This document shows positions 7,960 to 27,866 of a DNA stretch of 54,195 bases, piece after piece. The notes under the pieces are model-generated. The model saw only the letters and a program-made list of their open reading frames with translations, did not search any database and was not told the DNA's origin. How positions within the stretch are numbered: position 1 is the stretch's first letter; every line of letters starts with the position of its first letter. Made by a program: the position numbers and the translations under genes. Origin of the DNA: Clostridia bacterium (lineage in GTDB: Bacteria > Bacillota > Clostridia > Oscillospirales > CAG-272); NCBI GenBank assembly GCA_017502975.1, contig JAFVTV010000002.1:1-54195 (forward strand), given 5' to 3'.

Positions 7960-8081
7960 GGCCCGGGTCATGGGTTTGCAGAAAAAGGGAAAATACCCAT
8001 AATCTCTTTACAAACTTGTAAAACCGTGATAGAATTTTGGTAAGGGGAGCTCTACCCCTAAATTGTAAGGAGGAACAGAAT

Positions 8082-12220: not shown

Positions 12221-13147
12221 TCACTTCAAAAATCCGCCGATGATCTGTTCCTCTGCTTCCTTTTCGGTAAGACCGAGGGTCATGAGCTTGATGAGCTGCT
12301 CGCCCGCGATCTTGCCGATCGCCGCCTCGTGAACAAGGGAGGCATCGGGGTGGTTTGCCATGATCTCGGGCACAGCCGAAACGCTTGCTCCATCCATGAT
12401 GATGGCATCGCACTCGGTGCGCCCTGTGCAAGCGTTGTTGCCGTTTACATGCGATACAAACAACTGTGTGGAGCTATCGCGCGCAACGGAGCGCGAAACC
12501 ACGTGCGTGTTGCAGCCCTCGCCGTTGAGATCGACCTCGAAGCGCGTTTCGGCGCGTTGCGTACCGTGCGTCATCACCTTTTCGCGCACGATGAGGGTCG
12601 CCTTGTCGGCAAGTGTTGCTTTTGTCAGGCGGTTGGTGCTGTCAATGCCCTTAATCTGTGCCGTTTCCATTTCCATGTAAGCGCCCTCGGCAAGCTCCGC
12701 GACGGTTGTGGGGTTCATGGTGTTTTTGCCGTTGCCGTCACCCTCGCCGTAGTGCTTTTCGATATATTTTACGCGCGCATTTTTGCCAAGGTAAAAGGCA
12801 TGGATACCGCTGTGCTCGCTCTCGCCCTTGCCGCCGTTGTGAATGCCGCAGCCGGCAACAATGGTGATGTCGCAGTCCTGTCCGATATGGAAATCATTAT
12901 ACACAAGTTCTTTTAAGCCGGACTGTGCAAGCAGCACGGGAATGTGCAGGCTCTCCTTTTTCGTACCGGGCTTTACGTAAATATCAATGCCTTGCTTATC
13001 GGTTTTTGCCACGATCTCAATATTTTCGGAATTGCTTTTTCCAAACAGCTTTCCGTCAACGCGCAGGGAATACGCGCCTGCAGGGATCTCGTGGATATCC
13101 GCGACCTGCTCAAGCAGGTTCTTTTTGATGTTATCAAGCTCTCTCAT
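12221..13147 (-). CDS. SufB/SufD-family scaffold subunit (SmsB-like)
   Basis: 308 residues, shorter than SufB (about 470) or SufD (about 420). The beta-helix core is present (DITIVAGCGIHNGG, the ARVKYIEKHYG strand, TEAR-like ETRFEVDLNGEGC, CTGRTECDAIIMDGASVSAVPEI), and the C-terminal helices (SLVHEAAIGKIAGEQLIKLMTLGLTEKEAEEQII) are the SufC docking part. With the ATPase one base upstream it makes a two-gene set, as in the minimal SMS type of Fe-S assembly seen in archaea and anaerobes. The product would act as scaffold for Fe-S clusters, which the many Fe-S proteins of the next operon need. No SufS/SufU lies nearby. Confidence 0.85.
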   Translation of the reverse strand: MRELDNIKKNLLEQVADIHEIPAGAYSLRVDGKLFGKSNSENIEIVAKTDKQGIDIYVKPGTKKESLHIPVLLAQSGLKELVYNDFHIGQDCDITIVAGCGIHNGGKGESEHSGIHAFYLGKNARVKYIEKHYGEGDGNGKNTMNPTTVAELAEGAYMEMETAQIKGIDSTNRLTKATLADKATLIVREKVMTHGTQRAETRFEVDLNGEGCNTHVVSRSVARDSSTQLFVSHVNGNNACTGRTECDAIIMDGASVSAVPEIMANHPDASLVHEAAIGKIAGEQLIKLMTLGLTEKEAEEQIIGGFLK

Positions 13148-13148
13148 A

Positions 13149-13871
13149 TCAGTTTCCCTCCGTAAAGCGGCAGCCTGCGGTGGTGCCGAACAGCAAGGGG
13201 AAGACTTCCTCCTTCGTGCCCTCGGCGGCGACCTTGCCGTTTGCGATCATAATGAGCTTGTCCGCGATGTTAAGAATGCGCTCCTGGTGCGAGATGATGA
13301 GTATACTGCCGTTTATCTTCTCGTGCATCTTTTCAAAAACCTTAATGAGATTGTTAAAGCTCCAAAGGTCGATGCCTGCCTCGGGCTCGTCAAAAATAGA
13401 GAGCTTTGTGGCACGTGCCAGGATCTCTGCGATCTCAATGCGCTTGAGCTCGCCACCTGAGAGCGAGGCGTTGATCTCGCGGTTGATATACTCCTTTGCG
13501 CAAAGCCCGACCTCGGAAAGATAACTGCAGGCGGCAGAGATTGAAAGTTTTTCGCCTGCGGCAAGGGAAATGAGATCCTTGACCGTGAGGCCCTTAAAGC
13601 GCACGGGCTGCTGAAAGGCAAAGCTGATGCCGCGCTTTGCGCGCTCGGTGATCGAGAGATCGGTAATATCCTCGCCGTCAAGCAAAACGCGCCCCGAGGT
13701 GGGGGTGATAATGCCCGCAATGATCTTGGCAAGCGTGGATTTTCCGCTGCCGTTGGGGCCCGTGATCGCCATAAAGCGCTCGGAGATCTTTAAGTTTATG
13801 TCGTTTAATATTTCCGTTTTTCCACCGCTTTCAAGGGGTGCGGAAAAGCAGACGTGTTGTAATTCCAGCAT
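13149..13871 (-). CDS. SufC-like ABC ATPase (SmsC)
   Basis: 240-residue cytosolic ABC ATPase of the SufC type. Walker A GPNGSGKS near residue 40, Q-loop in FAFQQPVRFKG, signature LSGGELKR, Walker B LSIFDEPEAGID (the EPEAGID form typical of SufC), and H-loop IISHQERI. It partners the SufB-like protein that begins one base after its stop. ATG 13871 has AAAGGAG 8 bp upstream; the longer frame to 13943 lacks one. Separated divergently from fumC. Confidence 0.92.
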   Translation of the reverse strand: MLELQHVCFSAPLESGGKTEILNDINLKISERFMAITGPNGSGKSTLAKIIAGIITPTSGRVLLDGEDITDLSITERAKRGISFAFQQPVRFKGLTVKDLISLAAGEKLSISAACSYLSEVGLCAKEYINREINASLSGGELKRIEIAEILARATKLSIFDEPEAGIDLWSFNNLIKVFEKMHEKINGSILIISHQERILNIADKLIMIANGKVAAEGTKEEVFPLLFGTTAGCRFTEGN

Positions 13872-14045
13872 ATAAGCTCCTTTGGAAATTATAGTCCTAA
13901 TCATTATACCACAGGCAAGAAAAAAATTCAAGCAAAAACCCACATTTTCGCCTTCTTGTTACATTGCTGTAAAAAGCAACAGTTTTCTTGTTAAAAAATT
14001 GTCAAAAAAGGCAAGAACTTTGTCGCTTTATTTGGCGCGTACCTC

Positions 14046-14075
14046 TTGACGGTAAATGTTTAGCTGTGATATAAT
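14046..14075 (+). promoter_or_regulatory. Sigma-A promoter of the fumC-hdr-flx-frd operon
   Basis: TTGACG (14046-14051), 18 bp, TATAAT (14070-14075). A hairpin with stem CTCTCGCG/CGCGAGAG (14103-14120) lies in the leader just before the TAGGAGG ribosome site and could tune translation of fumC. Confidence 0.75.
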
Positions 14076-14138
14076 ATATAATGTTAAATTTATAACACAC
14101 GCTCTCGCGTGCGCGAGAGAGGTTTAGGAGGAAATAAG

Positions 14139-15515
14139 ATGGAATACCGTATTGAGCACGACTCCATGGGTGAGGTAAAGGTACCCGCTGACCGTTACTG
14201 GGCGGCACAGACCGAGCGCAGTCATCAGAACTTTCCGATCGGTGTTGGCATTGAGACCATGCCCCGTGAGATCACACGTGCGTTTGGTGTGCTGAAGAAG
14301 GCGGCGGCAATCGCCAACAATGCCCTCAAGCCCGAGAAGATGACCGATGAAAAGCTTGCCGCGATCAAGGTGGCGTGCGATGAGGTGATGTCGGGCGCGC
14401 TGAACGATCATTTTCCGCTTGTTGTATGGCAAACGGGGTCGGGCACGCAATCTAACATGAACGCAAACGAGGTGATTGCAAACCGCGCAAATGAGATCGC
14501 GGGCAGCAAGCTCTGCCACCCGAATGACGATATCAATATGAGCCAATCCTCAAACGACACCTTCCCCACTGCCATGCACATTGCGGCTGTTGAGGCGATC
14601 GAGGATAAGCTTTTCCCCGCGATTGATCTGCTGGTGGATACCTTCCGCCGCCTTGAAAAGGAAAACGAGGGGATCGTAAAAAGCGGCAGAACCCACCTGC
14701 AGGACGCAACGCCCATCACCTTCTCTCAGGAGATCTCGGGCTGGCGCTCGAGCTTGGAGCGCGACAGGGAGCTGCTTGAAAGATCGCTCCCGACCCTGAA
14801 GGAGCTGGCGCTTGGCGGCACCGCCGTTGGCACGGGCCTCAATACCCCTGCGGGCTTTGACGTAAAGGTTGCCGAGGCTGTTTCCGCTATCACGGGTAAG
14901 GACTTTAAGACCGCAGGGAACAAGTTTCACGCGCTCACCTCAAAGGACGAGCTGGTGTTTGCACACGGCGCCATTAAGGCGCTTGCCTGCGACATGATGA
15001 AGATCGCAAACGACGTGCGCTGGCTCGCTTCCGGCCCCCGTCTTGGTCTTGGCGAGATCCGCATTCCCGAAAACGAGCCCGGCTCCTCCATTATGCCCGG
15101 CAAGGTCAACCCCACCCAGTGTGAGGCAGTGACCATGGTTGCCGTTCAGGTCATGGGTAACGACGTGGCAGTCGGCATGGCGGCTTCGCAGGGCAACTTT
15201 GAGCTGAACGTCTTTATGCCTGTGTGCATTTACAACTTCCTGCAATCGGCAAGACTGCTTGCCGAGGCGATCGTTTCCTTTAACAACAACTGTGCCGTTG
15301 GCATTGTTGCCGATAAGGAGAAGATGCACGGAAATCTCCACAACTCCCTGATGCTGGTTACCGCACTCAACCCCTACATCGGTTACGAGAATGCGGCAAA
15401 GACTGCCAAGAAGGCTTACAAGGAGAACATTTCCCTGAAGGAAGCGTGCGTGGCGCTTGGCTTCCTCACGGCGGAAAAGTTTGATGAGGTATTTCATCCG
15501 GAACAAATGGTATAA
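14139..15515 (+). CDS. fumC: Class II fumarase
   Basis: Oxygen-stable fumarase interconverting malate and fumarate. About 458 residues. The superfamily signature [16 protein letters not shown] is at about residue 310 with the mobile catalytic Ser; [11 protein letters not shown] holds the catalytic His region; [14 protein letters not shown] binds substrate. ATG 14139 is chosen for TAGGAGG 7 bp before it. It is the first gene of the long operon, which implies that its job here is to feed fumarate to the FrdAB proteins encoded downstream. Confidence 0.96.
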
Positions 15516-15545
15516 ACCACGAAAACAAGAGAAGGGAACATACAA

Positions 15546-16328
15546 ATGAAATTCAGTTATTATCCCGGCTGTACGCTGAAGACCAAGGCAAAGGACCTTG
15601 ACAGATACGCAAGAGCCGCCTGCGAGGCGCTGGGTGTTGATCTTGCCGAGCTGCCCGAGTGGCAGTGCTGCGGCGCGGTCTACACCATGGCAAAGGATGA
15701 GATCGCCTCAAAGCTCTCCTCGGTGCGCGCGCTGGCAAGCGCACGCGACCTTGGCACGGATCTCGTTACGCTTTGCTCTGCTTGCCATAACGTGATCAAG
15801 CAGGTCAACAACGATATGAGAACGAACGCTGACATCGCGCTTCGCGCCAATAATTACTTAAAGCTTGACACGCCCTACACGGGTGAAACGAACGTGCTGC
15901 ACTTCCTCGAGATGCTGCGCGACCGCGTTGGCTTTGACGCGCTGAAGGCAAAGGTCACAAATCCCTTAACGGGTCGCAAGATCGGCGCTTACTACGGGTG
16001 CCTTTTGCTGCGCCCCTCAAAGGTCATGGCAATGGACGATGCCGAAAACCCCACCATTATTGAGGATTTCATTCGCGCTATCGGCGCGACGCCTGTGGTG
16101 TATGGCATGCGCAACGAGTGCTGCGGCGGCTATGTGACGCTTGAAAACAAGGGAAGTGCGAAGAAGCGGAGCAGCGCTGTGCTGGAAAGCGCAAAGTCCA
16201 AGGGCGCTGATACCGTTGTCACGGCTTGCCCTCTTTGCCTTTACAATCTCAAAAAGAACGGCGGCACCGACGGTGTTGACGTTGTATACTTTACCGAGCT
16301 CTTGGCTGAAGCGCTCGGCGTGAAATAA
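15546..16328 (+). CDS. hdrB: HdrB-like heterodisulfide reductase subunit
   Basis: 260 residues. Two CCG domains are complete: YYPGCTL...WQCCGA...CSACHN and YYGCLLLR...NECCGG...CPLCLYNL. In HdrB these bind two non-cubane 4Fe-4S clusters that split disulfides. The family works with HdrC and HdrA, here the next genes, in that order. Methanogens use CoM-S-S-CoB, which this organism should not make, so the disulfide or other electron acceptor is unknown. A 30-bp gap after fumC holds a good ribosome site. Confidence 0.92.
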   Translation: MKFSYYPGCTLKTKAKDLDRYARAACEALGVDLAELPEWQCCGAVYTMAKDEIASKLSSVRALASARDLGTDLVTLCSACHNVIKQVNNDMRTNADIALRANNYLKLDTPYTGETNVLHFLEMLRDRVGFDALKAKVTNPLTGRKIGAYYGCLLLRPSKVMAMDDAENPTIIEDFIRAIGATPVVYGMRNECCGGYVTLENKGSAKKRSSAVLESAKSKGADTVVTACPLCLYNLKKNGGTDGVDVVYFTELLAEALGVK

Positions 16329-16340
16329 GGAGGACAGGCG

Positions 16341-16736
16341 ATGAGTCACGATAAGAAGCAAGCACAGCTTGACGAGATCCTCGCGGCATCGGGCGTTGAC
16401 GTGCGCAAGTGCATGCGCTGCGGCAAGTGCACCGCGACCTGCCCTGCGTTTGATGAAATGGAATACCACCCCCACCAATTTGTTTACATGGTGGAAAAGG
16501 GTCAAATTGATAAGCTCGCGGCATCGCCCTCGATTTGGCAGTGCCTATCCTGCTTTGCCTGCATGGAGCGCTGCCCCCGTCAGGTAGAGCCCGCCAAGCT
16601 CATTGAGGCGGTGCGCCTTTCGGTTATTCGAGCAAAGGGCGCAAATCACCTGAAGCCCGAAGAGATTCCGGCGCTTCTTGATGCGGATCTGCCGCAGCAG
16701 GCGATCACAAGTGCGTTCCGCAAATACAGCAAGTAA
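16341..16736 (+). CDS. hdrC: HdrC-like 4Fe-4S subunit
   Basis: 131 residues with two ferredoxin motifs, CMRCGKCTATCP (about residue 23) and CLSCFACMERCP (about residue 68). HdrC wires HdrA to HdrB. AGGAGG before the ATG; 12 bp after hdrB. Shorter than methanogen HdrC but of the normal size for bacterial Flx-Hdr sets. Confidence 0.92.
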   Translation: MSHDKKQAQLDEILAASGVDVRKCMRCGKCTATCPAFDEMEYHPHQFVYMVEKGQIDKLAASPSIWQCLSCFACMERCPRQVEPAKLIEAVRLSVIRAKGANHLKPEEIPALLDADLPQQAITSAFRKYSK

Positions 16737-16751
16737 GGAGGAGGAACGAAG

Positions 16752-18749
16752 ATGCAAAGAATTGGCGTATTTATCTGTCATTGCGGTACAAACATTGCCG
16801 CAACGGTTGACGTAAAGGCTGTTGCCGAAGCGCTTGGCCGTGAGCCCGGTGTCGTTTTCTCCACCGATTACCAATACATGTGCTCGGAGTCGGGTCAGAC
16901 CCTGATGCGCGATGCCATTCGCGAGCATAAGCTCTCGGGTGTTGTCGTTTGCTCCTGCTCGCCCCGTATGCACGAGGCAACCTTCCGCAAAGCGGCAGAA
17001 AAAGAGGGGCTGAACCCCTACATGGTTGAGATCGCAAACATTCGTGAGCAGGTATCCTGGATACATAAGGATGTTGCCGAGGCAACCGAAAAGGCAATTA
17101 TCCTTGGCCGTGCCGCCATCGCAAAGGTGCACCTCAACAAGCCCCTGACGGCAGGCGAGAGCCCTGTTACAAAGCGCGCGCTTGTCATTGGCGGCGGTAT
17201 TGCGGGCATTCAGACCGCGCTTGATATTGCCGAGGCAGGGTTTGAGGTTGACATTGTGGAAAAGGAGCCTACGATCGGCGGTAAAATGGCGCAGATCGAC
17301 AAGACCTTCCCCACGCTTGACTGTGCCGCTTGTATCCTTACCCCCAAGATGGTGGATGTGGCACAAAACGATAAGATCAAGATCTTCTCCTACAGTGAGG
17401 TGGAGTCTGTAAAGGGCTTTGTCGGTAACTTTAAGGTAGCGATCCGTAAAAAAGCGCGCTTTGTCGATGAGGATAAGTGCACGGGCTGCGGCATTTGTAC
17501 CGAAAAGTGCCCGCAGAAAAAGGTTCCCAACGAATTTAACATGGGGCTTGATACCCGCCGTGCCATTTACATTCCCTTTGCGCAGGCAGTGCCGAAGGTG
17601 GCGACTATTGACGCAAATTACTGCACGATGATGAAAACAGGCAAGTGCGGCGTTTGCCAAAAGGTCTGCGGCGTAGGTGCTATTGACTATAAGCAGCAGG
17701 ACGTGATCGTGGAGCGCGAGTACGGCGCGATCGTTGCGGCAACGGGCTTTAACCCGATGAAGCCGACGCAGTATGACGAGCTTGGGTATTCGACCTGTGA
17801 GGACGTTGTCACCTCGCTTGAGCTTGAGCGCTTGATGAACGCGGCAGGCCCGACGGCAGGAACACTCCTGCGCCCCTCCGACAAAAAGCACCCCCACACC
17901 GTTGTGTTTGTGCAGTGCGTGGGGTCGCGTTGCGATGCTGAAAACGAGAAGGGCAAGCCCTACTGCTCTAAGATCTGCTGCATGTATACCGCAAAGCACG
18001 CGATGCTCATTCGCGAGAAGTACCCTGATACCGAGGTTTACGTATTCTATATTGACGTGCGTACCCCCGGCAAGAACTTTGATGAGTTCTATCGCCGCGC
18101 GGTAGAGCAGTACGGTGTGCATTACGTGAAGGGTCAGGTTGGTAAGGTCGTTGAGGATAACGGCGTGCTGAAGGTGCAGGCAAGCGACCTTTTGTCGGGC
18201 GAGCAGCTTCACATCGATGCCGATCTTGTGGTTCTTGCAACCGCAGTTGAGCCCGACAAGAGCGCGCGCTCTATTGCCACGATGCTGACTGCCAGCATGG
18301 ATACCAACGACTTCTTTACCGAGGCACACGCAAAGCTTCGTCCCGTAGAGAGCCCCACGGCGGGCATCTTCCTCTCGGGCGTTTGCCAAGGCCCGAAGGA
18401 TATTCCCGAAACGGTTTCTCAGGCAAGCGCTGCCGCGGCAAAGGTCATTGGCCTGCTTGCCAAGGATAAGCTTACCTGCAATCCCTGCGTGGCTGAATCC
18501 GATGAGCTGCTTTGTAACGGCTGCTCCTCGTGTGAGAAGGTATGTCCTTACGGCGCCATTACCTATGCCGATAAGGAGTTCCGCGGCCCCAATCGCACCA
18601 CCCTTATTCGCCGCGTAGCGAGCGTAAACCCCGCAGTATGCCAGGGGTGTGGTGCTTGTACCGTGGCTTGCCCGTCGGGCGCGATGGACCTGAAGGGCTT
18701 TTCTAACAGACAAATCATGGCGGAGGTTGACGCAATATGCAAGATGTAA
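16752..18749 (+). CDS. hdrA: HdrA-like flavoprotein, putative bifurcation site
   Basis: 665 residues. Order of parts: N-terminal IGVFICHCGTN Fe-S domain; FAD-binding Rossmann fold at GGGIAGIQTALDIAE (about residue 145) with the TLDCAACILTPKM Cys segment; inserted ferredoxin motifs CTGCGICTEKCP and CGVCQKVCG; thioredoxin-reductase-like second half with FVQCVGSRC; C-terminal CNGCSSCEKVCP and CQGCGACTVACP. In methanogen and bacterial complexes HdrA's FAD is where an electron pair is bifurcated, one to ferredoxin and one toward HdrBC. This member keeps all parts. It overlaps flxD by 13 bp. Confidence 0.94.
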   Translation: MQRIGVFICHCGTNIAATVDVKAVAEALGREPGVVFSTDYQYMCSESGQTLMRDAIREHKLSGVVVCSCSPRMHEATFRKAAEKEGLNPYMVEIANIREQVSWIHKDVAEATEKAIILGRAAIAKVHLNKPLTAGESPVTKRALVIGGGIAGIQTALDIAEAGFEVDIVEKEPTIGGKMAQIDKTFPTLDCAACILTPKMVDVAQNDKIKIFSYSEVESVKGFVGNFKVAIRKKARFVDEDKCTGCGICTEKCPQKKVPNEFNMGLDTRRAIYIPFAQAVPKVATIDANYCTMMKTGKCGVCQKVCGVGAIDYKQQDVIVEREYGAIVAATGFNPMKPTQYDELGYSTCEDVVTSLELERLMNAAGPTAGTLLRPSDKKHPHTVVFVQCVGSRCDAENEKGKPYCSKICCMYTAKHAMLIREKYPDTEVYVFYIDVRTPGKNFDEFYRRAVEQYGVHYVKGQVGKVVEDNGVLKVQASDLLSGEQLHIDADLVVLATAVEPDKSARSIATMLTASMDTNDFFTEAHAKLRPVESPTAGIFLSGVCQGPKDIPETVSQASAAAAKVIGLLAKDKLTCNPCVAESDELLCNGCSSCEKVCPYGAITYADKEFRGPNRTTLIRRVASVNPAVCQGCGACTVACPSGAMDLKGFSNRQIMAEVDAICKM

Positions 18750-19171
18750 ATTATAGACCCAAAATCGTAGCGTTTTGCTGCAATTGGTGCTCGTATGCGG
18801 GTGCTGACCTTGCAGGCTCAAGCCGCCTTGCATATCCTGCGGACGTCAAGATCATCCGCGTGCCCTGCTCCTGCCGTGTAAACCCCTTGTTTATTCTGCG
18901 CGCCTTTCAGCGCGGTGCTGACGGCGTGATCATGGCAGGCTGCCACCCCGGTGACTGCCACTATACCAGCGGCAACTATTTTGCACGCCGCCGCATGACG
19001 CTCCTGTTCTCGATGCTTGATTACCTCGGCATTGAGCGCGAGCGCACGCGCGTTGAGTGGATCTCGGCAGCAGAGGGTGCAAAATTCTCGAAAACGATGA
19101 ACGAATTTGCGGCAACCATCGCCGCACTTGGTGAGAACAAGAGATTGGAGGATCTGCGATGCAAGAAATGA
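18737..19171 (+). CDS. MvhD/FlxD-like iron-sulfur adaptor
   Basis: 144 residues of the MvhD family: FCCNWCSYAGAD, VPCSCRVNP and GCHPGDCHY carry the conserved Cys pairs of its 2Fe-2S cluster. MvhD docks the electron donor to HdrA. In hydrogenotrophs the donor is MvhAG hydrogenase; no hydrogenase subunit is present here, and the donor module is FlxABC instead. It overlaps both hdrA (13 bp) and the next gene (13 bp), so the complex is translated in a fixed ratio. Confidence 0.9.
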   Translation: MQDVNYRPKIVAFCCNWCSYAGADLAGSSRLAYPADVKIIRVPCSCRVNPLFILRAFQRGADGVIMAGCHPGDCHYTSGNYFARRRMTLLFSMLDYLGIERERTRVEWISAAEGAKFSKTMNEFAATIAALGENKRLEDLRCKK

Positions 19172-20130
19172 TGAAAAAGCGCGCCATAGAATTGCTTGCC
19201 AACGGCACGTGTGACCGTGTGCTCGGCTGGACAAACGGCGACTTTGCATATGACCAGACTCCTGCGCTCTTTCGCACCGAGCAGGAGTTGGAGGAAGGGT
19301 TCGTTTATAACGGCTTTTCTGCCGCAAATCTTTCTAAATATCTTGTAAAGGAATGCCGCGCGGGCGGTAAGATCCTTGTGTTCCTCAAGCCCTGTGATAC
19401 ATACAGCTTTAATCAGCTTGTAGCCGAGCACCGCATCAAGCGTGAGATGATCTACGTCATTGGCGTTGCTTGCGATGGCAAGGCAGACGTAGAAAAGCTG
19501 AAGGAGCAGGGAATTGACGGCATTACTGCCATCAAGGAAGAGGGCGATACGTATGTCGTATCCACCATTTACGGGGATAAGACCGTGAAGAAGGAAGACG
19601 TCCTTGCCGAGCGCTGTGTGAATTGCAAGAGCCGCAAGCACATGGTATACGATGAGCTCATTGGCGAGGCGGGCGACGTGATTGCCGACTGCGGTCGCTT
19701 TGATATGGTAGAAAAGCTTGAGGCTATGACGCCCGACGAGCGCTACGAGTTCTGGCGCGGCGTGCTTTCGCGCTGCATTCGCTGCAACGCCTGCCGCAAC
19801 GTCTGCCCCGCTTGCACCTGTGAGCAGTGCATCTTTGACAACCCCAAGTCGGGTGTGGCGCAAAAGGCGGCGGCAAACTCCTTTGAGGAGAATATGTTCC
19901 ATATCATCCGTGCTTTCCACGTGGCAGGCAGATGCACCGACTGTGGCGAGTGCTCTCGCGTATGTCCCGAGAACATTCCGCTTCATCTTTTGAACCGCAA
20001 GTTTATTAAGGATGTAAACACCTTTTACGGTACGTATCAGGCAGGCGAGGATCCTGCCGCAAAGCCCCCGCTTGGCAGATACGAGAAAAACGATATCGAG
20101 CCCGGTGAGGCAGGAGGTGTAAAGGCATGA
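19159..20130 (+). CDS. FlxC-like 4Fe-4S protein (FrhB/FdhB-related)
   Basis: 323 residues. The first 200 residues resemble the beta-subunit fold of F420/formate dehydrogenases (ILVFLKPCDTYSFNQL, MIYVIGVACDGKADVEKLK), with extra Cys in RCVNCKSRKH. The C-terminal third has CIRCNACRNVCPACTCEQC and CTDCGECSRVCP, two 4Fe-4S clusters. I place it as the FlxC/FlxB-type ferredoxin subunit of the NADH module; which Flx letter it deserves is uncertain. ATGA overlap with the next gene. Confidence 0.8.
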   Translation: MQEMMKKRAIELLANGTCDRVLGWTNGDFAYDQTPALFRTEQELEEGFVYNGFSAANLSKYLVKECRAGGKILVFLKPCDTYSFNQLVAEHRIKREMIYVIGVACDGKADVEKLKEQGIDGITAIKEEGDTYVVSTIYGDKTVKKEDVLAERCVNCKSRKHMVYDELIGEAGDVIADCGRFDMVEKLEAMTPDERYEFWRGVLSRCIRCNACRNVCPACTCEQCIFDNPKSGVAQKAAANSFEENMFHIIRAFHVAGRCTDCGECSRVCPENIPLHLLNRKFIKDVNTFYGTYQAGEDPAAKPPLGRYEKNDIEPGEAGGVKA

Positions 20131-21152
20131 AAAAGCTATCTTCTGCAAAGCTGAATGAATTTTTTGCCGCCATTGCGGCAAGCAAAGCGCTCTACCTGCC
20201 CGTGGATAACAAGAGCGGCAAGGCAGAGTATAAGAAGTGGGAAGCGGGCGAGGAAATGAGCAAGGCGCTCAATACCGTGCGCTCCGCGAAGGATTTCTTC
20301 TTCCCCCAGACCGAAAACCTGATGGAATTCAAGATGGACGGCAAAAGGGTTGAGGTCATCGACACCCGCGCTGAGGCTGAGGATTTTGTGATCTTTGGCG
20401 TGCGCGCGTGCGATGCCGCAAGCTTCAAGATCCTTGACAGCGTCTATCTTGTTGACCCCGTTGACAGTTATTACAAAACGCGCCGCGAGCATGGCGTGGT
20501 TGTAACGCTTGCCTGCGGCAAGCCTGCGGAAACCTGCTTTTGCAAGGTCTTTGGCATTGATGCGGCTGACCCCGCAGGTGACGTGACCGCTTGGGAGACC
20601 GATGGCGCTTATATGCTGCGCGCCAATACCGAAAAGGGCGAGGCGTTGCTTGACTCTGTTGGCGCACTCCTTGAGGAGGGCGATGAGGCGGCAGTAGCGG
20701 CGGCACAGGCAAAGACGCGTGAGATTATCGAAAGACTTCCGCTTTCCTCGCTTTCTACCGAGGGGCTGGGCGTTGGCAAGACCGCGGAGCTCTTTGACCG
20801 CCCCGAGTGGAAGACCCTCTCCGAGGCATGCCTTGGCTGTGGCACCTGCACCTTTGTCTGCCCCACCTGTCAGTGCTATGACGTGCGCGATTTTGACACG
20901 GGCAACGGCATCAAGCGTTTCCGCTGCTGGGATTCCTGCATGTACTCCGATTTCACGCTGATGGCACACGGCAATTCCCGTAATTCTCAAGTAGAACGCT
21001 TCCGTCAGCGCTTTATGCACAAGCTGGTGTATTATCCCGACCGTAATAACGGCACCTTTGGGTGCGTGGGCTGTGGCAGATGCCTTTCCCGCTGCCCCAT
21101 TTCCATGAATATTGTAAAGGTAATGAAGACAATGGGAGGTAAGAACAAATGA
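20127..21152 (+). CDS. FlxB-like 4Fe-4S dicluster protein (AsrA-related)
   Basis: 341 residues. The body matches the subunit family of anaerobic sulfite reductase A and sulfhydrogenase beta (DFFFPQTENLMEFK, VIFGVRACDAASFKILD). Two clusters close the chain: CLGCGTCTFVCPTCQC and CVGCGRCLSRCP. It starts in an ATGA overlap with the preceding gene and ends in another with flxA, so it is built as part of one complex. Likely carries electrons between FlxA and the MvhD-like protein. Confidence 0.85.
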   Translation: MKKLSSAKLNEFFAAIAASKALYLPVDNKSGKAEYKKWEAGEEMSKALNTVRSAKDFFFPQTENLMEFKMDGKRVEVIDTRAEAEDFVIFGVRACDAASFKILDSVYLVDPVDSYYKTRREHGVVVTLACGKPAETCFCKVFGIDAADPAGDVTAWETDGAYMLRANTEKGEALLDSVGALLEEGDEAAVAAAQAKTREIIERLPLSSLSTEGLGVGKTAELFDRPEWKTLSEACLGCGTCTFVCPTCQCYDVRDFDTGNGIKRFRCWDSCMYSDFTLMAHGNSRNSQVERFRQRFMHKLVYYPDRNNGTFGCVGCGRCLSRCPISMNIVKVMKTMGGKNK

Positions 21153-21976
21153 ACACCGAAACCTTGATCCCTTACGTTGGTATCGTTACCGAGATCACAC
21201 AGCAGACCCCCGATGTAAAGACCTTTCGTGTAGAGGCGCCCGGCGGCGGCAAGCTCTTTGAGCACAAGCCCGGGCAGTGCGCTATGCTCTCGGTGCCCGG
21301 CATCAGCGAGGCAATGATCTCGATTACCTCCTCGCCCACCAACACCGAATATATGGAGTTTAGCGTAAAGAAGTGCGGTTGCCTTACCGAATGGCTGCAC
21401 GCCATGGAGGTTGGTCAAATGATCACTGTGCGCGGCCCTTACGGTCGCCATTTCCCCGTGTATGATGAGCTGCTTGGCAAGGATCTGTTGATCATTGCCG
21501 GCGGTATCGGCCTTGCGCCTGTGCGCTCTGTTATCAACTACGTGCGCGACAATCGCGACAAGTTTGGCACGGTGGATATCGTTTACGGCTCGCGCTCCAA
21601 GGATGACCTTGTGTACTACAAGGAGATCGTAGAGGAGTGGATGCAGACCGAGGGCTTTAACGTTCACCTCACCATTGACAACCCTCAAGAGGGGTGGGAT
21701 GGGCACGTTGGCTTTGTTCCCAATTTCGTCAAGGAGCTAAACCCCGATCTTAAGAAAACCGTTTTGATGTGCGGACCGCCCATCATGATCAAGTTTACGC
21801 TTGGGGGTCTGATGGACCTTGGCTTTAAAAAGGAGCAGGTCTACACCACAATGGAGCTTCGCATGAAGTGCGGTATCGGCAAATGCGGCCGCTGCAACAT
21901 CGGCAACAAGTACGTGTGCAAGGACGGACCCGTGTTCCGCTTTGATGAGCTTGACGAGCTGCCGAGCGAATACTGA
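21149..21976 (+). CDS. FlxA-like NAD(P)H-binding flavoprotein (AsrB-related)
   Basis: 275 residues. FAD domain (ETLIPYVGIVTEITQQTPDV, FKPGQ-like HKPGQCAML), NAD(P)-binding domain (LLIIAGGIGLAPVRSVI, DIVYGSRSKDDLVY, LMCGPPIMIKFTL), and a C-terminal 2Fe-2S motif MKCGIGKCGRCNIG...VCKDGPVF as in dihydroorotate dehydrogenase B. This is the entry point for NADH (or NADPH) electrons in FlxABCD-HdrABC sets, described in Desulfovibrio. ATGA overlap with flxB; 18 bp before frdB. Confidence 0.88.
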   Translation: MNTETLIPYVGIVTEITQQTPDVKTFRVEAPGGGKLFEHKPGQCAMLSVPGISEAMISITSSPTNTEYMEFSVKKCGCLTEWLHAMEVGQMITVRGPYGRHFPVYDELLGKDLLIIAGGIGLAPVRSVINYVRDNRDKFGTVDIVYGSRSKDDLVYYKEIVEEWMQTEGFNVHLTIDNPQEGWDGHVGFVPNFVKELNPDLKKTVLMCGPPIMIKFTLGGLMDLGFKKEQVYTTMELRMKCGIGKCGRCNIGNKYVCKDGPVFRFDELDELPSEY

Positions 21977-21994
21977 TAAGGAGAAACCACAGAA

Positions 21995-22666
21995 ATGGAA
22001 AAAATGGTAAATATATACCTGTACGGTAAAAAATACGAGGTGCCCGCAAGCCTGACGATCATGAACGCCATGGAATACGCAGGCTACCAGCTGGTGCGCG
22101 GCGTTGGCTGCCGTTGCGGCTTTTGCGGCGCTTGTGCCACGATCTACCGTATCAAGGGCGAAAATGAATTAAAGACCTGCCTTGCTTGCCAAACTAAGGT
22201 AGAGGACAATATGTACATCGCAACGCTCCCCTTCTTCCCGTTGGTAAAGCAGCCCTACGATATCAACAAGGTAAAGCCCACCGAGCAGATCATGATGCAG
22301 CTTTACCCCGAGATCTATGCTTGCGTTGGCTGCAATGCCTGCACCAAGGCCTGCACGCAGGAGCTTAAGGTCATGCAGTACATCGCTTACGCACAGCGCG
22401 GCGAGTACGAGAAGTGCGCGGAGGAATCCTTTGACTGCGTGATGTGCGGCGTTTGCTCGTCGCGCTGCCCCGCAGGCATTACCCACCCGCAGGTCGGGCT
22501 TCTCGCAAGACGCCTCACGGGCAAGTACCTTGCACCCGAAACAAAGCATCTTTTAGATCGCGTTGCCGAAATTGAGGCAGGCGATTGCGAGGCGGCGCTG
22601 AAGGATATCATGGCAAAGACGGCTGAGGAGCTCAAGGAGCTCTACAACAACCGCGATTTTGAGTAA
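21995..22666 (+). CDS. frdB: FrdB/SdhB-like three-cluster iron-sulfur protein
   Basis: 223 residues. The N-terminal plant-type 2Fe-2S domain is marked by GCRCGFCGAC...CLAC; then CVGCNACTKACT and CVMCGVCSSRCP for two 4Fe-4S clusters. It resembles the fumarate reductase/succinate dehydrogenase iron-sulfur subunit or the N-terminal part of TfrB, thiol:fumarate reductase, but without TfrB's HdrB-like tail. No quinone-binding membrane anchor gene (frdC/D, sdhC) is anywhere in the operon. I infer a soluble partner that passes electrons from Hdr/Flx to FrdA. ATG has GGAG upstream. Confidence 0.8.
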   Translation: MEKMVNIYLYGKKYEVPASLTIMNAMEYAGYQLVRGVGCRCGFCGACATIYRIKGENELKTCLACQTKVEDNMYIATLPFFPLVKQPYDINKVKPTEQIMMQLYPEIYACVGCNACTKACTQELKVMQYIAYAQRGEYEKCAEESFDCVMCGVCSSRCPAGITHPQVGLLARRLTGKYLAPETKHLLDRVAEIEAGDCEAALKDIMAKTAEELKELYNNRDFE

Positions 22667-22678
22667 GGAGGCACGACA

Positions 22679-24328
22679 ATGTATACACAGGAAATGTTAG
22701 AGTCCATTAAAAAAGTGGAAGCAACGCGTGCCGAGCGCTTAGCCAATGTGAAGGCAGGCATCCACCCCCGCCGCATGACGGCAGAGGAAAAGGTGCAGGT
22801 CAAAATGGAGAACCACCCCGACTATATCGAGTCGCAGTTTGCTGAGCTTTCGATTGGCCCCAACAAGGGCGAGAAGGTTCCGCTTGAGCTTGCTGAGGTT
22901 TTGCAGGGCAACCCCCGCGTGACCCCGAAGGATATTGACCTCACCAAGGTTGATTACGACGTGGACGTGCTTGTCATCGGCGGTGGCGGCTCGGGCTCTG
23001 CTGCGGCAATTATGGCGCACGAGAACGGTGCAAACGTTATGATCGTAACTAAACTCCGTCACGGTGATGCGAATACCATGATGGCAGAGGGCGGTATTCA
23101 GGCGGCGGATAAACCCAACGACAGCCCCGCGCAGCACTACCTTGACGTCATGGGCGGCGGTCACTTTAAAAACGTACCCGAGCTTGTTGGCAAGCTTGTA
23201 ACCGATGCACCTATCTGTATCAAGTGGCTCAACGACCTTGGCGTTATGTTTGATAAGGAAGCCGACGGTACCATGGTCACCACCCATGGCGGCGGTACCT
23301 CGCGCAAGCGTATGCACGCCTGCAAGGACTATTCTGGCGCTGAGATCATGCGCGTGCTTCGCGATGAGGTACAAAACCGCGCGATCCCCGTGGTAGACTT
23401 TACCTCGGCAATCGAGATCATTAAGGACGAGAAGGGCAGAGCTGCAGGCGCCGTGCTTCTCAATATGGAAACGCAGGAGATCCTGATTGCGCGTGCAAAG
23501 ACCGTGGTCATCGCTACGGGCGGTGCAGGCCGTATGCACTATCAGGGCTTCCCCACCTCCAACCACTACGGTGCAACCGCAGATGGCTTGGTGCTTGCTT
23601 ACCGCGCAGGCGCGCCCCTGCTTTACGCCTACACCCTGCAGTATCACCCCACGGGTGCGGCTTACCCCTCTCAGATCTTTGGCGCACTTGTTACCGAGAA
23701 GGTGCGCTCGATCGGTGCACAGCTCGTAAACAAGGATGGCGAGCCCTTTATGTACTCGCTTGAGACCCGTGATATCTGCGCTTCGGGCGTTATCCGTGAG
23801 TGCAAGCGCGGCAATGGCGTTGATACCTTCAATGGCGGTCAGGGCGTATGGCTCGACTCCCCCATGATCGATATGATCCACGGAGAGGGCACCATTGAGA
23901 AGCGTATCCCCGCTATGATGCGTATGTACCTCAAGTACGGCATTGATATGCGCAAGCAGCCCATCCTCATTTACCCCACGCTCCACTACCAAAACGGCGG
24001 TATCAAGATCGGCGTCAATGGCATGTCCGACGTTGAGAACCTGTTTGTTGCAGGTGAGGCTGTGGGCGGTATCCACGGCGAGAACCGCCTGATGGGCAAC
24101 TCCTTGCTTGACATTATCGTATTTGGCCGTAACGCGGGTGTGAATGCTGCGAAGGTGGCAAAGGATATGGCTCCTGCAAAGAAGCTGAATCTTAACCACG
24201 TGAAGAGCTTTATGAAGGAAATGAAGGATGCCGGCATCAAGACCGACGTCGTATCTCCTCGCCTTCTGCCCCGTTACACGCACGGCAACCCCGTGTTTGA
24301 TGAGCCCAACGCAAAATTGATGAAGTAA
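22679..24328 (+). CDS. frdA: Fumarate reductase-type flavoprotein, non-covalent FAD
   Basis: 549 residues. A 95-residue N-terminal extension precedes the FAD fold (VLVIGGGGSGSAAAI). Catalytic landmarks of FrdA/SdhA are kept: QYHPTG, the Arg in LVTEKVRSIG, HYQNGGI, and HGENRLMGNSLLDIIVFGRNAG. The His that binds FAD covalently in membrane FrdA (in SHTVAAEGG) is replaced by Asn (ANTMMAEGG), as in soluble members. So this should be a soluble fumarate reductase with non-covalent FAD. Its place after flx-hdr genes and fumC fits fumarate, though other enoate substrates are possible. 12 bp after frdB. Confidence 0.85.
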   Translation: MYTQEMLESIKKVEATRAERLANVKAGIHPRRMTAEEKVQVKMENHPDYIESQFAELSIGPNKGEKVPLELAEVLQGNPRVTPKDIDLTKVDYDVDVLVIGGGGSGSAAAIMAHENGANVMIVTKLRHGDANTMMAEGGIQAADKPNDSPAQHYLDVMGGGHFKNVPELVGKLVTDAPICIKWLNDLGVMFDKEADGTMVTTHGGGTSRKRMHACKDYSGAEIMRVLRDEVQNRAIPVVDFTSAIEIIKDEKGRAAGAVLLNMETQEILIARAKTVVIATGGAGRMHYQGFPTSNHYGATADGLVLAYRAGAPLLYAYTLQYHPTGAAYPSQIFGALVTEKVRSIGAQLVNKDGEPFMYSLETRDICASGVIRECKRGNGVDTFNGGQGVWLDSPMIDMIHGEGTIEKRIPAMMRMYLKYGIDMRKQPILIYPTLHYQNGGIKIGVNGMSDVENLFVAGEAVGGIHGENRLMGNSLLDIIVFGRNAGVNAAKVAKDMAPAKKLNLNHVKSFMKEMKDAGIKTDVVSPRLLPRYTHGNPVFDEPNAKLMK

Positions 24329-24518
24329 TAAGGGCATCTTCCCCGCCCTTTCTTGAAGGGCGGGGGAGAGCCACTCGCGCTTATCTTGAAGTTATTTGAT
24401 GCGGCGATAGCCGCAAACCCTCGCGGGAGAACGCATTTTGCCCAAAAAGCCCATAACGGAGTAGTTTTTGTGCGAAATACGCTCTCCCTACAACACAATT
24501 TTTTTGGAGGCATTTCTC
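24329..24518 (+). promoter_or_regulatory. Hairpin-bearing gap before the exchanger gene
   Basis: CCCCGCCCTTTCTTGAAGGG lies at 24340-24366 with a perfect stem but no T run, so it may attenuate rather than end transcription, or protect the upstream mRNA. GGGAGAACGCATTT and AAATACGCTCTCCC pair across 24425-24488. TTGGAGG at 24504-24510 serves the next gene. Confidence 0.45.
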
Positions 24519-25721
24519 ATGATCGAATATCTTGGTGGTGTAACCGGCTCGCTCCTTTCCACCATTTTTATTGCCTTTATCATCGCTGCGCTCGGTTATC
24601 TTTTGGGCGCGATCGAGATCAAGGGCATTTCGCTCGGCACGGCAGGTGTGCTGCTTGTAGCGCTTGCCTACGGTGTTCTTTGCAACTATGTACCGAGCTT
24701 CACGATCGGTGCAAAAACCATCTCACTGTTCAACGCAGGCAATTTTAAACTGATCTCCAGCATCGGTACGGCAATGTTTGTGACTGCCGTGGGTCTGATC
24801 GCAGGCCCCAAGTTCTTCCGCACCTTCAACCGCAAGTCACTTTCCTATATTGTAATGGGAATTGTTGTCATCACTGCGGGCGCACTTACCGCTGTTGTTC
24901 TTACCCTTGTTGATTCCGGGCTTACTCCTGCAATGGCTGTCGGTCTTCTCACGGGCGGCCTTACCTCAACGCCCGGCCTTTCCGCCGCGCAGGACGTGGT
25001 TTCGGAGAGTGCCGATGCTCTCAGTCAGCTTACCGCAGGCTATGGCATCGCGTATTTGTTTGGTGTGCTTGGCGTGGTGCTGTTTGTGCAGATCATGCCC
25101 AAGGTCCTTAAGGTTGACATTGACAAGGAGCGCGAGTCCTTTGTGGCTGCCGCCGCTGTCGAGATCAAGAAGAGTGAAAAGCAGTATAAGCAGCTTGATC
25201 CCTTTGGATTTTTCCCTTTCTTCCTTGCCATTGCCCTTGGCTGCGTGATCGGCGCCATTAAGATCCCCGGCATCAACTTCTCGCTCGGCACCTCGGGCGG
25301 TACGCTTGTGGCAGGCCTGATTATCGGTCACTTTGGCCACATCGGCCCGATCGATTGCCGCCTCAAGAAGGAAACGCTCAACTTCTTCCGCGAGCTCGGC
25401 CTTGTGCTCTTCCTCATTGGCGCAGGCGTGCCCGGCGGTGTGAATTTTGTTTCTAACGTAAAGGTTTCCTACTTTATCTACGGCGCTATTATGACGCTGG
25501 TGCCCATGATCCTTGGCTTTGTGCTGGGTAAGTTTGTGTTCAAGCTTTCCATTTTCAACAACCTTGGCTCTATCACGGGCGGTATGACCTCAACCCCTGC
25601 ACTTGGCGCCTTGATCAGCACCGCTAAGACCGACGACGTTTCCGCTTCTTACGCGGCAACCTACCCCATTGCGCTTGTGATGGTGGTGCTGGCAGCGAAG
25701 ATCATTTTGATGGTGTTCTAA
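24519..25721 (+). CDS. AspT/SucE-type dicarboxylate or amino acid exchanger
   Basis: About 400 residues, 10-11 hydrophobic helices. Two inverted halves each carry the family motif: LTGGLTSTPGLSAAQ and ITGGMTSTPALGALI (aspartate:alanine exchanger family). The central loop (about 30 residues) lacks the two TrkA-C domains of E. coli YidE/YbjL. Known members include AspT and the succinate exporter SucE1 of corynebacteria. After fumC and frdAB, succinate export is the simplest reading, with malate or aspartate uptake as an alternative. ATG 24519 has TTGGAGG 8 bp before; the longer frame is spacer. Confidence 0.8.
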   Translation: MIEYLGGVTGSLLSTIFIAFIIAALGYLLGAIEIKGISLGTAGVLLVALAYGVLCNYVPSFTIGAKTISLFNAGNFKLISSIGTAMFVTAVGLIAGPKFFRTFNRKSLSYIVMGIVVITAGALTAVVLTLVDSGLTPAMAVGLLTGGLTSTPGLSAAQDVVSESADALSQLTAGYGIAYLFGVLGVVLFVQIMPKVLKVDIDKERESFVAAAAVEIKKSEKQYKQLDPFGFFPFFLAIALGCVIGAIKIPGINFSLGTSGGTLVAGLIIGHFGHIGPIDCRLKKETLNFFRELGLVLFLIGAGVPGGVNFVSNVKVSYFIYGAIMTLVPMILGFVLGKFVFKLSIFNNLGSITGGMTSTPALGALISTAKTDDVSASYAATYPIALVMVVLAAKIILMVF

Positions 25722-25756
25722 AACGCAGTTGGGTTTTTAGCGCAAAAAAGAAAAAG

Positions 25757-25800
25757 CAACCGCCATCCCCACCCGAAAGGAGGGGAGGCGGTTTTTTGCG
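25757..25800 (+). terminator. Terminator of the fumC-frd operon
   Basis: AACCGCC...GGCGGTT outer stem with an inner CCCC/GGGG pairing, then TTTTTT. Closes the 11.7-kb operon. Confidence 0.8.
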
Positions 25801-25894: not shown

Positions 25895-25969
25895 GGCCCG
25901 TTAGTCAAGCGGCTAAGACGTCGCCCTCTCACGGCGAAGGCATGGGTTCGATTCCCGTACGGGTCACCA
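25895..25969 (+). tRNA. tRNA-Glu (CTC), CCA encoded
   Basis: Cloverleaf fits: acceptor GGCCCGT/ACGGGTC, anticodon stem TCGCC/GGCGA with loop CTCTCAC giving anticodon CTC, T arm ATGGG-TTCGATT-CCCGT, discriminator A, CCA. Its 3' end is the left attachment site of the island described below. Confidence 0.95.
25951..25967 (+). repeat. Putative attL in the 3' end of tRNA-Glu
   Basis: ATTCCCGTACGGGTCAC, identical in direct orientation at 46210-46226. It covers half the T arm and the acceptor 3' strand, so the tRNA stays whole after integration. Confidence 0.7.
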
Positions 25970-26292: not shown

Positions 26293-27147
26293 GTGTATAT
26301 GAAATATGCTGCTTTAATGTTTGATATTGTTGAATCGAGGCATTATCAAGATAGATATGATGTCCAAAACATCTTAATGAATGCCGTAAGCTATTTGAAT
26401 TATTTGTATAGTGAAGATATAAAAAAAGAGGTCGTTTCCAGTGCTGGCGATGAATTTCAGGGATTGTTTTTTAATCTTCAATCTGCTTTTTTGTATATCA
26501 GAAAATTGCAATTGCTTATTTATCCTATCAAAGTGCGGTGCGGAATAGGATACGGAGAAATAAAATATGATGTGAAGGAATGGTCGTCTTTAGCATTTGA
26601 CGGAGAAGCTTATTATTTAGCGCGTGATGCAATCAATGAGATTTCAAAAAGAAAAAGTAATGCAATATTTTTCAACACAAGATCTAATTATGATAAATAT
26701 TTGAACATGCTTTGCTTCGCCGGTGTTGACATGAAAGTTCGTCAATCTCAGGTTGCTCGTTGGATTGAACTTTTAGCAGACATTATTTTACCTATTAAAC
26801 AAGTAGAAGAAGATATTTCGTTTTATGATTTCATTTTGGAAATGAGGCACAGAATAATTTTATCTGAACGATGGAATAAAGTGTATGATAAATCAAGAGA
26901 AATTGAACCTTTTGATACTGATTTCCGTTTTTTGTTTGAAACAAGAGGCGAGTTTAGATCAAAAGAAGATTATTATAACAACTTAATTGTTGAAGAATTT
27001 TGGAGTTACGGGATGTCCACTGTTCTTGCACAAGCGATGGGCACATCACGCCAAAATATTGACAGATATGTTTCCTTGGGAAAAATAAAAGACAGTCGCA
27101 CAATGGATAAAACAATTTATGAATTGTTGGGAGAAGAAATATGGTAA
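26293..27147 (+). CDS. SatD-family protein (nucleotide-cyclase-like fold)
   Basis: 284 residues. The N-terminal half begins with a strand and acidic residue (ALMFDIVESR) and continues to SSAGDEFQGLF and VRCGIGYGEI, the pattern of the GGDEF/class III cyclase fold that SatD shares. The C-terminal 60 residues (STVLAQAMGTSRQNIDRYVSLGKI) form a winged or helix-turn-helix DNA-binding end. So it may sense or make a nucleotide and bind DNA; neither activity is proven for the family as far as I know. GTG 26293 has AAGGAG 6 bp before; ATG 26299 is the alternative. It overlaps the membrane protein gene by 7 bp. AT-rich against the host. Confidence 0.75.
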   Translation: MYMKYAALMFDIVESRHYQDRYDVQNILMNAVSYLNYLYSEDIKKEVVSSAGDEFQGLFFNLQSAFLYIRKLQLLIYPIKVRCGIGYGEIKYDVKEWSSLAFDGEAYYLARDAINEISKRKSNAIFFNTRSNYDKYLNMLCFAGVDMKVRQSQVARWIELLADIILPIKQVEEDISFYDFILEMRHRIILSERWNKVYDKSREIEPFDTDFRFLFETRGEFRSKEDYYNNLIVEEFWSYGMSTVLAQAMGTSRQNIDRYVSLGKIKDSRTMDKTIYELLGEEIW

Positions 27148-27866
27148 ACTTTTTGATTTTATTGACTCTACATTTTTTAGGAGATTTTTATTTGCAAACG
27201 TCCAAAATTGCAAAATGTAAAAACGCCAATATTGGAGAAGATTGCAACCGCTGCAGTAGTTGTAAGGAAAAGGCTTTTTTTAATAATAAATATGTTGCTC
27301 TTCATTCGTTGCTGTATGCAGTTCCGTTCTTGTTCCTGTTCTTTATGACAAGATGGACAAGCGCCCTCATAATAATAGCAACACTTCTCGCTTCGCATTA
27401 TGTGATAGATACAATTTCTTGTTGCTTGAACAAAAAGCTAAAACAAACACTCGTATTTATTGTAGACCAAGTATTACATATCGCAATTTTCGTTGTGATG
27501 TTTAAATTATTTGATTTCAACTCTGAGTTCGAAAAATATGAGTTTGTAATAAAAATCATTTTTTCTGTTTCGTTTTTAATTATTCCCGTTTCTGTTTTTA
27601 TAAACAAGCTTTTTTATGACCTATATCCTAATTCGCAGCCAGGCAAAATATTTGATGTCGGCTCAATAATAGGAATGTTTGAGCGAGCATTGGTTTTAAT
27701 TTTCGCAAGCTTTGGAGATTTTGCCGCAATTGCAATTATTATCACCATAAAAACTTGGGCTAGATCAAATGATTTGAAAGATCCCGAATTTAGAAATAAA
27801 TATTTATTAGGAACTTTAGCAAGTTTGGTGTTAGCCTTAATAGCATTTTTAATTTATAGGTTGTGA
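27141..27866 (+). CDS. DUF3307 membrane protein
   Basis: 241 residues with about six hydrophobic helices. LTLHFLGDFYLQT at the start and HYVIDTISCCLNKK are DUF3307 landmarks (acidic residues inside helices: LGDF, VIDT). A Cys-rich insert CNRCSSC sits in the first loop. SatD and DUF3307 proteins recur as a pair in Bacillota, and the 7-bp overlap supports joint work, perhaps nucleotide sensing coupled to a membrane effector. Function unknown. Confidence 0.75.
   Translation: MVNFLILLTLHFLGDFYLQTSKIAKCKNANIGEDCNRCSSCKEKAFFNNKYVALHSLLYAVPFLFLFFMTRWTSALIIIATLLASHYVIDTISCCLNKKLKQTLVFIVDQVLHIAIFVVMFKLFDFNSEFEKYEFVIKIIFSVSFLIIPVSVFINKLFYDLYPNSQPGKIFDVGSIIGMFERALVLIFASFGDFAAIAIIITIKTWARSNDLKDPEFRNKYLLGTLASLVLALIAFLIYRL

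Follow-up and report, generated by a model that had tools for sequence, protein, structure and literature searches.

A conserved Flx-Hdr-FrdBA operon in Clostridia encoding a candidate cytoplasmic, possibly electron-bifurcating NAD(P)H:fumarate oxidoreductase

We analyzed a contiguous stretch of 54,195 nucleotides from a Clostridia bacterium (contig JAFVTV010000002.1, hereafter the window), which contains an operon joining HdrABC-type and FlxABCD-type redox modules to a two-subunit fumarate reductase, FrdBA. Eleven plus-strand genes at 14139–25721 encode FumC, HdrB, HdrC, HdrA, FlxD/MvhD, FlxC, FlxB, FlxA, FrdB, FrdA and an AspT-family exchanger. The leading gene fumC (14139–15515) specifies a class II fumarate hydratase scoring 707.4 bits against the TIGR00979 cut-off of 664.75, and is followed by hdrB (15546–16328), by hdrC (16341–16736) for a 4Fe-4S dicluster protein assigned from family matches, and by hdrA (16752–18749). 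The Flx part comprises flxD/mvhD (18737–19171) for a 2Fe-2S adaptor (FlpD/MvhD, 184 bits), flxC (19159–20130) for a dicluster protein that has Fe-S domains only and is named from its operon position, flxB (20127–21152) for an Fe-S protein of the sulfhydrogenase beta/AsrA type, and flxA (21149–21976) for a FAD/NAD(P)-binding subunit of the sulfhydrogenase gamma/AsrB type, the latter two again from family matches. The remaining genes are frdB (21995–22666), with 2Fe-2S and dicluster domains, the flavoprotein gene frdA (22679–24328; FAD_binding_2, 219 bits) and the exchanger gene (24516–25721). Spacings between the first ten genes are 30, 12, 15, −13, −13, −4, −4, 18 and 12 bp, negative values denoting overlaps; frdA and the exchanger gene are separated by 187 bp if the ATG at 24516, located behind a GGAGG, serves as start, or by 139 bp with an upstream TTG. 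Family searches and spacings thus confirmed the gene identities and the tight packing of ten genes given in a first-pass annotation of this DNA.

The same annotation assigned one promoter and one terminator to all eleven genes. Upstream of fumC a sigma-70-like promoter match (14046–14075, plus strand; TTGACG-18-TATAAT with a TG before the −10 element) agrees with 11 of 12 consensus positions; it is a consensus match only, sites of such kind numbering 18 in the scanned region versus 11.2 in shuffles. Behind the exchanger gene lies a terminator-like hairpin followed by a T run (~25759–25797, plus strand; −28.7 kcal/mol for the stretch, z −4.8), which was not listed by a mechanical terminator scan that itself performed no better than shuffles (19 versus 18.6). 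Both end signals were thus found, but a stronger hairpin lacking a T run is positioned between frdA and the exchanger gene (24333–24372, plus strand; −34.4 kcal/mol, z −6.0), so that a single transcript reaching the exchanger gene is not established. Hairpins of different sequence are present at this junction in three other loci that were folded (L078, L098, L101) and in a fourth by eye (L077), and two further loci (L080, L102) have almost no spacer there. An Rfam search of the sequence returned nothing but a tRNA.

The predicted Hdr subunits exhibit the domain composition of HdrABC. HdrA aligns end to end with solved HdrA chains, including the FAD and ferredoxin domains, and its Lys415 falls on Lys409 of methanogen HdrA, a residue that we take to touch the FAD. 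HdrB carries two CCG motifs, whose cysteines 9/41/42/77/80 and 152/192/193/228/231 are invariant in 10 aligned sequences, and HdrC is a dicluster protein. The curated methanogen cut-offs were not reached by HdrA2 (794 of 1100 bits), HdrB (136.7 of 345) or HdrC (65 of 160); for HdrB the best NCBIfam model is the SdhE anchor, the CCG-bearing subunit of a fumarate reductase, at 153.3 versus 136.7 bits for the HdrB models, all under their cut-offs. Adjoining HdrABC, an MvhD-like protein, two Fe-S proteins and a FAD/NAD(P)-binding subunit make up what we take to be the composition of FlxABCD, with FlxA akin to NADH enzymes as well as NADPH enzymes.

FrdA retains H323, T339, E340, R364, H436 and R470, which align with the fumarate site of solved SdhA and do not vary among 13 sequences of 50% identity or more, in line with the earlier claim of kept catalytic residues. 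This is the complete His, Thr-Glu, Arg, His, Arg set, whose roles at the substrate site we assume to be those of FrdA/SdhA enzymes. Asn132, likewise invariant in 13 sequences, occupies the position of the flavin-attaching His of quinone-linked enzymes, suggesting that the FAD is probably bound non-covalently. About 90 additional residues extend the protein at its N terminus, where HPD and GPNKG-like stretches are conserved, and nothing in it matched the C-terminal portion of SdhA/FrdA. Among NCBIfam models it scores highest against TfrA, with 333 bits where the cut-off is 718, and it stays below all curated cut-offs shown. L-aspartate oxidase was ruled out, as a His in FrdA aligns with the NadB Glu that is presumably specific to that enzyme; FrdA paralogs at 29–37% identity form a separate set of matches and were taken as NadB-like.

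FrdB, of 223 residues, contains a [2Fe-2S] motif (C39, C44, C47, C65) and two [4Fe-4S] motifs (C110/113/116/120 and C148/151/154/158), all invariant in 14 aligned sequences. Its best family matches are far under their cut-offs, and, as a correction to the first-pass annotation, the protein is not of the ordinary FrdB/SdhB kind. No solved structure closely related by sequence to either FrdA or FrdB was found. An ordinary quinol:fumarate reductase was rejected: no membrane-anchor gene is present in the cluster, as previously noted, the covalent-FAD His is lacking, and menB is absent from 22 of 22 genomes searched. The latter agrees with the quinone independence proposed earlier as far as the menB route to menaquinone, as distinct from the futalosine route, is concerned. 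The exchanger consists of two PF06826 (Asp-Al_Ex) repeats, as in AspT/SucE (AspT/YbjL family), and stays under the cut-off for the TIGR03802 aspartate-alanine antiporter (148 of 547 bits); it is a candidate succinate exporter.

To describe how the operon is conserved, we used two sets of loci. The named loci are the best 80 of at least 591 matches and are skewed to close relatives, and the unnamed loci derive from 21 of the 51 other ortholog-bearing genomes of the window's family, mostly matches with room on the contig; the sets overlap (for example L103 and L081) and their counts are not summed. Of 146 family genomes, 52, counting the window's and two fragments, hold a FrdA ortholog at 60% identity or above, and 39 of 398 phylum genomes, again counting the window's, have a match at E ≤ 1e-100. 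Gene order was scored in loci with 9 kb or more of sequence before frdA, a requirement that excluded 28 of the 80 named loci and one of the 21 unnamed ones. The order hdrB-hdrC-hdrA-flxD-flxC-flxB-flxA-frdB-frdA is kept in every locus that qualified (52/52 named, 20/20 unnamed), which answers the synteny check proposed in the first-pass annotation and rules out chance clustering. Upstream of this core, fumC is found in 33/52 and 16/20 of these loci, respectively, and an AspT-like gene in 52 of the 69 named and 17 of the 21 unnamed loci with at least 1.7 kb downstream. Each of 21 operon-bearing genomes tested yielded a single HdrA match at E ≤ 1e-40, and the window's own genome (1.66 Mb assembly, 84% complete) has no second FrdA match at E ≤ 0.001. 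Named FrdA matches at 89–90% identity belong to metagenome-assembled genomes (MAGs) titled Clostridia or Oscillospiraceae bacterium (L098–L100); an animal host or gut site appears in the record titles of 43 of 80 named loci, and the named strain Blautia glucerasea MSK.21.93 (L166) carries the nine-gene core. Operon genes with 70–74% FrdA identity also occur in MAGs titled Treponema, Planctomycetaceae and Spirochaetales (L105, L147, L164), reflecting either mis-binning or transfer.

Outside the family we inspected 39 loci from 38 genomes, one genome having two copies. The full nine-gene set recurs in five of them. Four, from two families (L039, L041, L042 and L044; f17 and f63), show the order frdB-frdA-hdrB-hdrC-hdrA-flxD-flxC-flxB-flxA, and one from a further family (L071) has hdrC ahead of hdrB. 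The link of FrdBA with the whole Flx-Hdr set thus outlasts gene-order changes. In 11 of the 39 loci the Hdr genes are accompanied by a second, large HdrA-like protein, of 1053–1489 residues beside a HdrA of 648–683 residues in nine loci and cut by the contig end in two (L062, L066). In L049 this is a 1092-residue flavoprotein (6928–10206) with two FAD-type and several ferredoxin domains, encoded between HdrA and frdBA, and the domains of this single example suggest that the large proteins are Qmo-like. Malic enzyme and 2-oxoacid oxidoreductase-like genes were seen by eye nearby in the same locus. In four loci (L055, L060, L061, L065) frdB-frdA is joined by hdrC-hdrB alone; neither hdrA nor flx genes were matched on either side, a further 4.9 to 12 kb downstream included, which points to a wiring of HdrB to FrdB. 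The remaining 19 loci have no hdr match, and among them FrdBA adjoins a dicluster–cytochrome b561 fusion protein (L076) or, in L047 and similarly by eye in L038, a dicluster protein together with an FMN-binding membrane protein, and for some pairs in the phylum no recognised electron-input partner was found nearby.

Class I fumarase genes adjoin frdBA in several other families (by eye). Two loci with more distant FrdA relatives (L072, L074) both have MmgE/PrpD-type neighbours, L074 also a PrpF-type one, as judged by eye. In genome G220, two further FrdA-like matches (28% and 35%) and a FrdB-like match lie downstream of the frdBA pair (L200, 1840–9861). A FrdA tree, calculated with a quick method and containing several long branches, tracks gene context, requiring 11 changes of context under six labels versus 33.9 in shuffles, the four loci of families f17 and f63 then being labelled as lacking Flx; with revised labels, for which no shuffles were run, the full set required 4 and four classes 7 changes. 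The group that holds the window (SH-aLRT 99) comprises 26 rows, of which 22 have the full set and 4 do not, and the other five full-set loci are located elsewhere in the tree. From these contexts, FrdBA looks like a modular head.

The cluster very probably converts fumarate to succinate in the cytoplasm with NADH, perhaps with reduced ferredoxin as by-product. Our overall explanation, to which we give a probability of about 0.55, is a cytoplasmic NAD(P)H:fumarate oxidoreductase in which Flx-Hdr and a two-subunit fumarate reductase head would form one physical, bifurcating complex. Direct feeding of FrdBA by Hdr-Flx appears highly likely, its odds being raised by the full nine-gene set found in a second order in two other families, and given such feeding, bifurcation would be reasonably probable. 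In the proposed sequence, FumC would form fumarate from malate and NADH, or possibly NADPH, would be oxidised at FlxA, the likely electron route being FlxA > FlxBCD > HdrA > HdrC/HdrB > FrdB > FrdA. Electrons would thus pass through FlxB, FlxC and FlxD to the FAD of HdrA and split there, the high-potential branch running via HdrC, then the non-cubane HdrB clusters and then FrdB to the FrdA FAD, where succinate would be formed, and the low-potential branch leading to reduction of ferredoxin by HdrA; the exchanger may then export the succinate. The net reaction would be 2 NADH + fumarate + Fd(ox) → 2 NAD+ + succinate + Fd(red), for which the potentials quoted in PMC5861303 (ferredoxin −420, NADH −320, fumarate +33 mV) give, by our own arithmetic, about −49 kJ/mol.

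We searched 22 genomes, 21 of them with the operon, for RnfC, [FeFe]-hydrogenase and menB, and ten genomes for RnfD, NuoD/Ech, PFOR, Nfn and PFL. RnfC was over its cut-off in 15/21 and [FeFe]-hydrogenase in 18/21 operon-bearing genomes; no hydrogenase over cut-off was found in the window genome, in G037 (its sister, 97% complete) or in a genome that is 52% complete. A genus member lacking the operon (G140) also has no [FeFe]-hydrogenase over cut-off, and the third operon-bearing member (G097) has the hydrogenase together with an RnfC-like match under cut-off. RnfD was present in 6 of the ten genomes and absent in all four genus members, and NuoD/Ech-type subunits were absent in 10/10. PFOR and an NfnB-type protein were found in 10/10 and PFL in 9/10; in the window genome PFOR has nfnB and, by eye, an nfnA-like gene as neighbours. 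The window genome additionally encodes a protein (L179, 461–1606) that by eye resembles a sodium-pumping decarboxylase membrane subunit, a possible alternative energy-conserving step.

Several observations weigh against the bifurcating complex. The window genome and G037, 84% and 97% complete, lack RnfC and [FeFe]-hydrogenase matches over cut-off as well as any RnfD or Ech-type match, and the only outlets for extra reduced ferredoxin seen are Nfn and 2-oxoacid oxidoreductases, so that forward bifurcation in the window genome would have to pass its ferredoxin electrons on to NADPH or biosynthesis. Beside frd, 19 of the 39 non-family loci have no hdr match, and for 17 of these 19 a longer downstream stretch of 7 to 13 kb yielded none either; four of the 19 (L048, L053, L057, L075) have little upstream contig, and L053 belongs to the same genus as L055, which has hdrCB. 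A predominant separation of hdr/flx from frd, which the first-pass annotation named as counting against its proposal, is therefore false within the family and partly true in the wider phylum. In the sections consulted, PMC5861303 states that HdrABC homologs alone are no proof of bifurcation, and PMC11636981 describes the tfrAB genes of Endoriftia as an exception to the co-expression of the Hdr-Flx cluster.

The strongest competitor, which we regard as possible at somewhat better than one chance in four, is the same coupled complex operating without bifurcation, as a sink that would place all electrons from NADH, and perhaps also from reduced ferredoxin, onto fumarate. With PFOR and PFL both present and the above outlets missing in the window genome and G037, extra reduced ferredoxin would be harder to balance there, and a dual-donor sink would balance it. 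Against this, the operon is equally conserved in the relatives, most of which have a hydrogenase or RnfC at the counts given above, HdrA is of full length with both FAD and ferredoxin domains, and an NfnB-type protein is present. Somewhat more doubtful is a variant in which FrdBA would be a plug-in fumarate head on various inputs (Flx-Hdr in two or more gene orders, Hdr with a Qmo-like flavoprotein, HdrCB on its own, a dicluster-cytochrome b protein) and in which, in the window's genus, Flx-Hdr would merge NADH and reduced ferredoxin onto fumarate with HdrA as the sink junction; it draws on the genus lacking any detected Rnf or Ech-type subunit, two of its operon-bearing members also being without an [FeFe]-hydrogenase over cut-off.

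A link through a thiol pool, in which Hdr-Flx would reduce a DsrC-like or small-molecule disulfide and FrdAB would use the resulting thiols as in thiol:fumarate reductase, is improbable. The CCG part of TfrB carries thiol oxidation, and FrdB lacks this HdrB-like part, so that FrdAB would have no thiol site of its own and the single HdrB would have to serve both directions; the FrdB-like and HdrB-like parts that TfrB unites in one chain are thus not combined here. TfrA as best model for FrdA and the two retained CCG sites of HdrB speak in its favour, as does the DsrC-like route named as an alternative for Endoriftia in the text consulted of PMC11636981. We give still less weight to FrdAB drawing on another donor and being merely co-transcribed with Hdr-Flx: FrdBA does stand beside the b561-dicluster protein, the dicluster and FMN-binding membrane proteins or no recognised partner in other families, but the nine-gene linkage holds in all scorable family loci and survives the gene-order change, with one HdrA match per genome. 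The second gene order slightly raised our estimate for the overall explanation and slightly lowered those for mere co-transcription and for the thiol route. Equally slight are the chances of a fumarate-like acid as the true substrate, since the fumarate-site residues are invariant, fumC heads the operon here and in most scorable loci, and class I fumarase genes adjoin frdBA in several other families, although FrdA remains below the curated cut-offs and the MmgE/PrpD-type neighbourhoods suggest that some members of this FrdA class may reduce other unsaturated acids.

If the bifurcating oxidoreductase operates as proposed, succinate formation in many gut Clostridia would conserve energy as reduced ferredoxin, with neither membrane nor quinone, and models of growth yield and of the hydrogen/succinate balance in gut and rumen would change. 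A natural contrast for this question is offered by carriers of the operon that possess the usual ferredoxin outlets and carriers that lack them.

In the flanks of the operon, a sufC-sufB-type Fe-S assembly pair (by eye; 12221–13943) is oriented divergently from it, an arrangement that also adjoins the operon in L077, L080 and partly L101. Further upstream, 8037–10757 encodes a 906-residue protein with collagen-like Gly-X-Y repeats after a lipoprotein-like start (by eye). Downstream, tRNA-Glu (25895–25969) precedes two genes at 26293–27866 in a stretch of only 33% G+C, possibly a recent insertion.

Among known systems, FlxABCD-HdrABC of Desulfovibrio vulgaris, reportedly described by Ramos et al. 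in 2015, shares with the window the composition of an NADH module and HdrABC, as judged by family matches. Methanogen TfrAB is related in that TfrA is the best model for FrdA, and the two halves of the TfrB model correspond to the N-terminal part of FrdB and to HdrB; it differs in its FrdB-HdrB fusion, which is absent here, and the scores are far under the cut-offs. The 8-methylmenaquinol:fumarate reductase SdhABE provides the best model for HdrB in its SdhE subunit, whereas the window encodes a soluble NAD(P)H module and menB was not found in the genomes searched. According to PMC10920352, in the part available, the high-potential acceptor in Desulfovibrio is thought to be DsrC, whereas the window's operon continues with fumarate reductase genes. 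Flx-Hdr genes are associated with a thiol:fumarate-reductase-like pair in Thioflavicoccus and tubeworm symbionts (PMC6315080, PMC11636981, as far as these texts were accessible), and PMC6315080 describes tfrAB as intermingled with flxABCD-hdrABC and suggests that electrons pass directly; that setting differs by its reductive TCA cycle and 2-oxoglutarate:ferredoxin oxidoreductase. Moorella MetFV-HdrABC-MvhD is likewise an NADH-linked HdrABC-MvhD with an attached acceptor enzyme, with methylene-tetrahydrofolate as acceptor and no FlxABC set named in the consulted part of PMC5861303.

Closest of all is the 'succinate operon' of Pseudoclostridium thermosuccinogenes, which in the sections available of PMC7282089 consists of one gene for fumarate hydratase, seven for Flx-Hdr, two for fumarate reductase and one for a hypothetical protein that may be a succinate transporter. 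The coupling of succinate formation to ferredoxin is proposed there, citing a 2019 preprint of Koendjbiharie and van Kranenburg, and the claim that the full set had not been described thus falls. Its transcripts were about 4-fold up under CO2 limitation, not significantly so for every subunit (PMC7282089). By gene list and locus-tag order, this operon has the same gene set and order as the window's; it belongs to a different organism, and the likeness is one of published gene lists and does not take in the types of fumarase and transporter. CRISPRi is available in P. thermosuccinogenes (PMC9044749). No P. thermosuccinogenes locus is recognisable by title among the best 80 of at least 591 matches, and no report of a purified Flx-Hdr-Frd complex was found in the literature searched, most subscription journals being outside its scope. 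The operon is thus real and conserved and of a kind already proposed in print, with a mechanism that is unproven as far as that literature goes. To the published proposal, our analysis adds synteny counts for gut-type Clostridia, a second gene order, the modular contexts of FrdBA, Asn132 of FrdA, the clusters of FrdB and the missing ferredoxin outlets in close kin.

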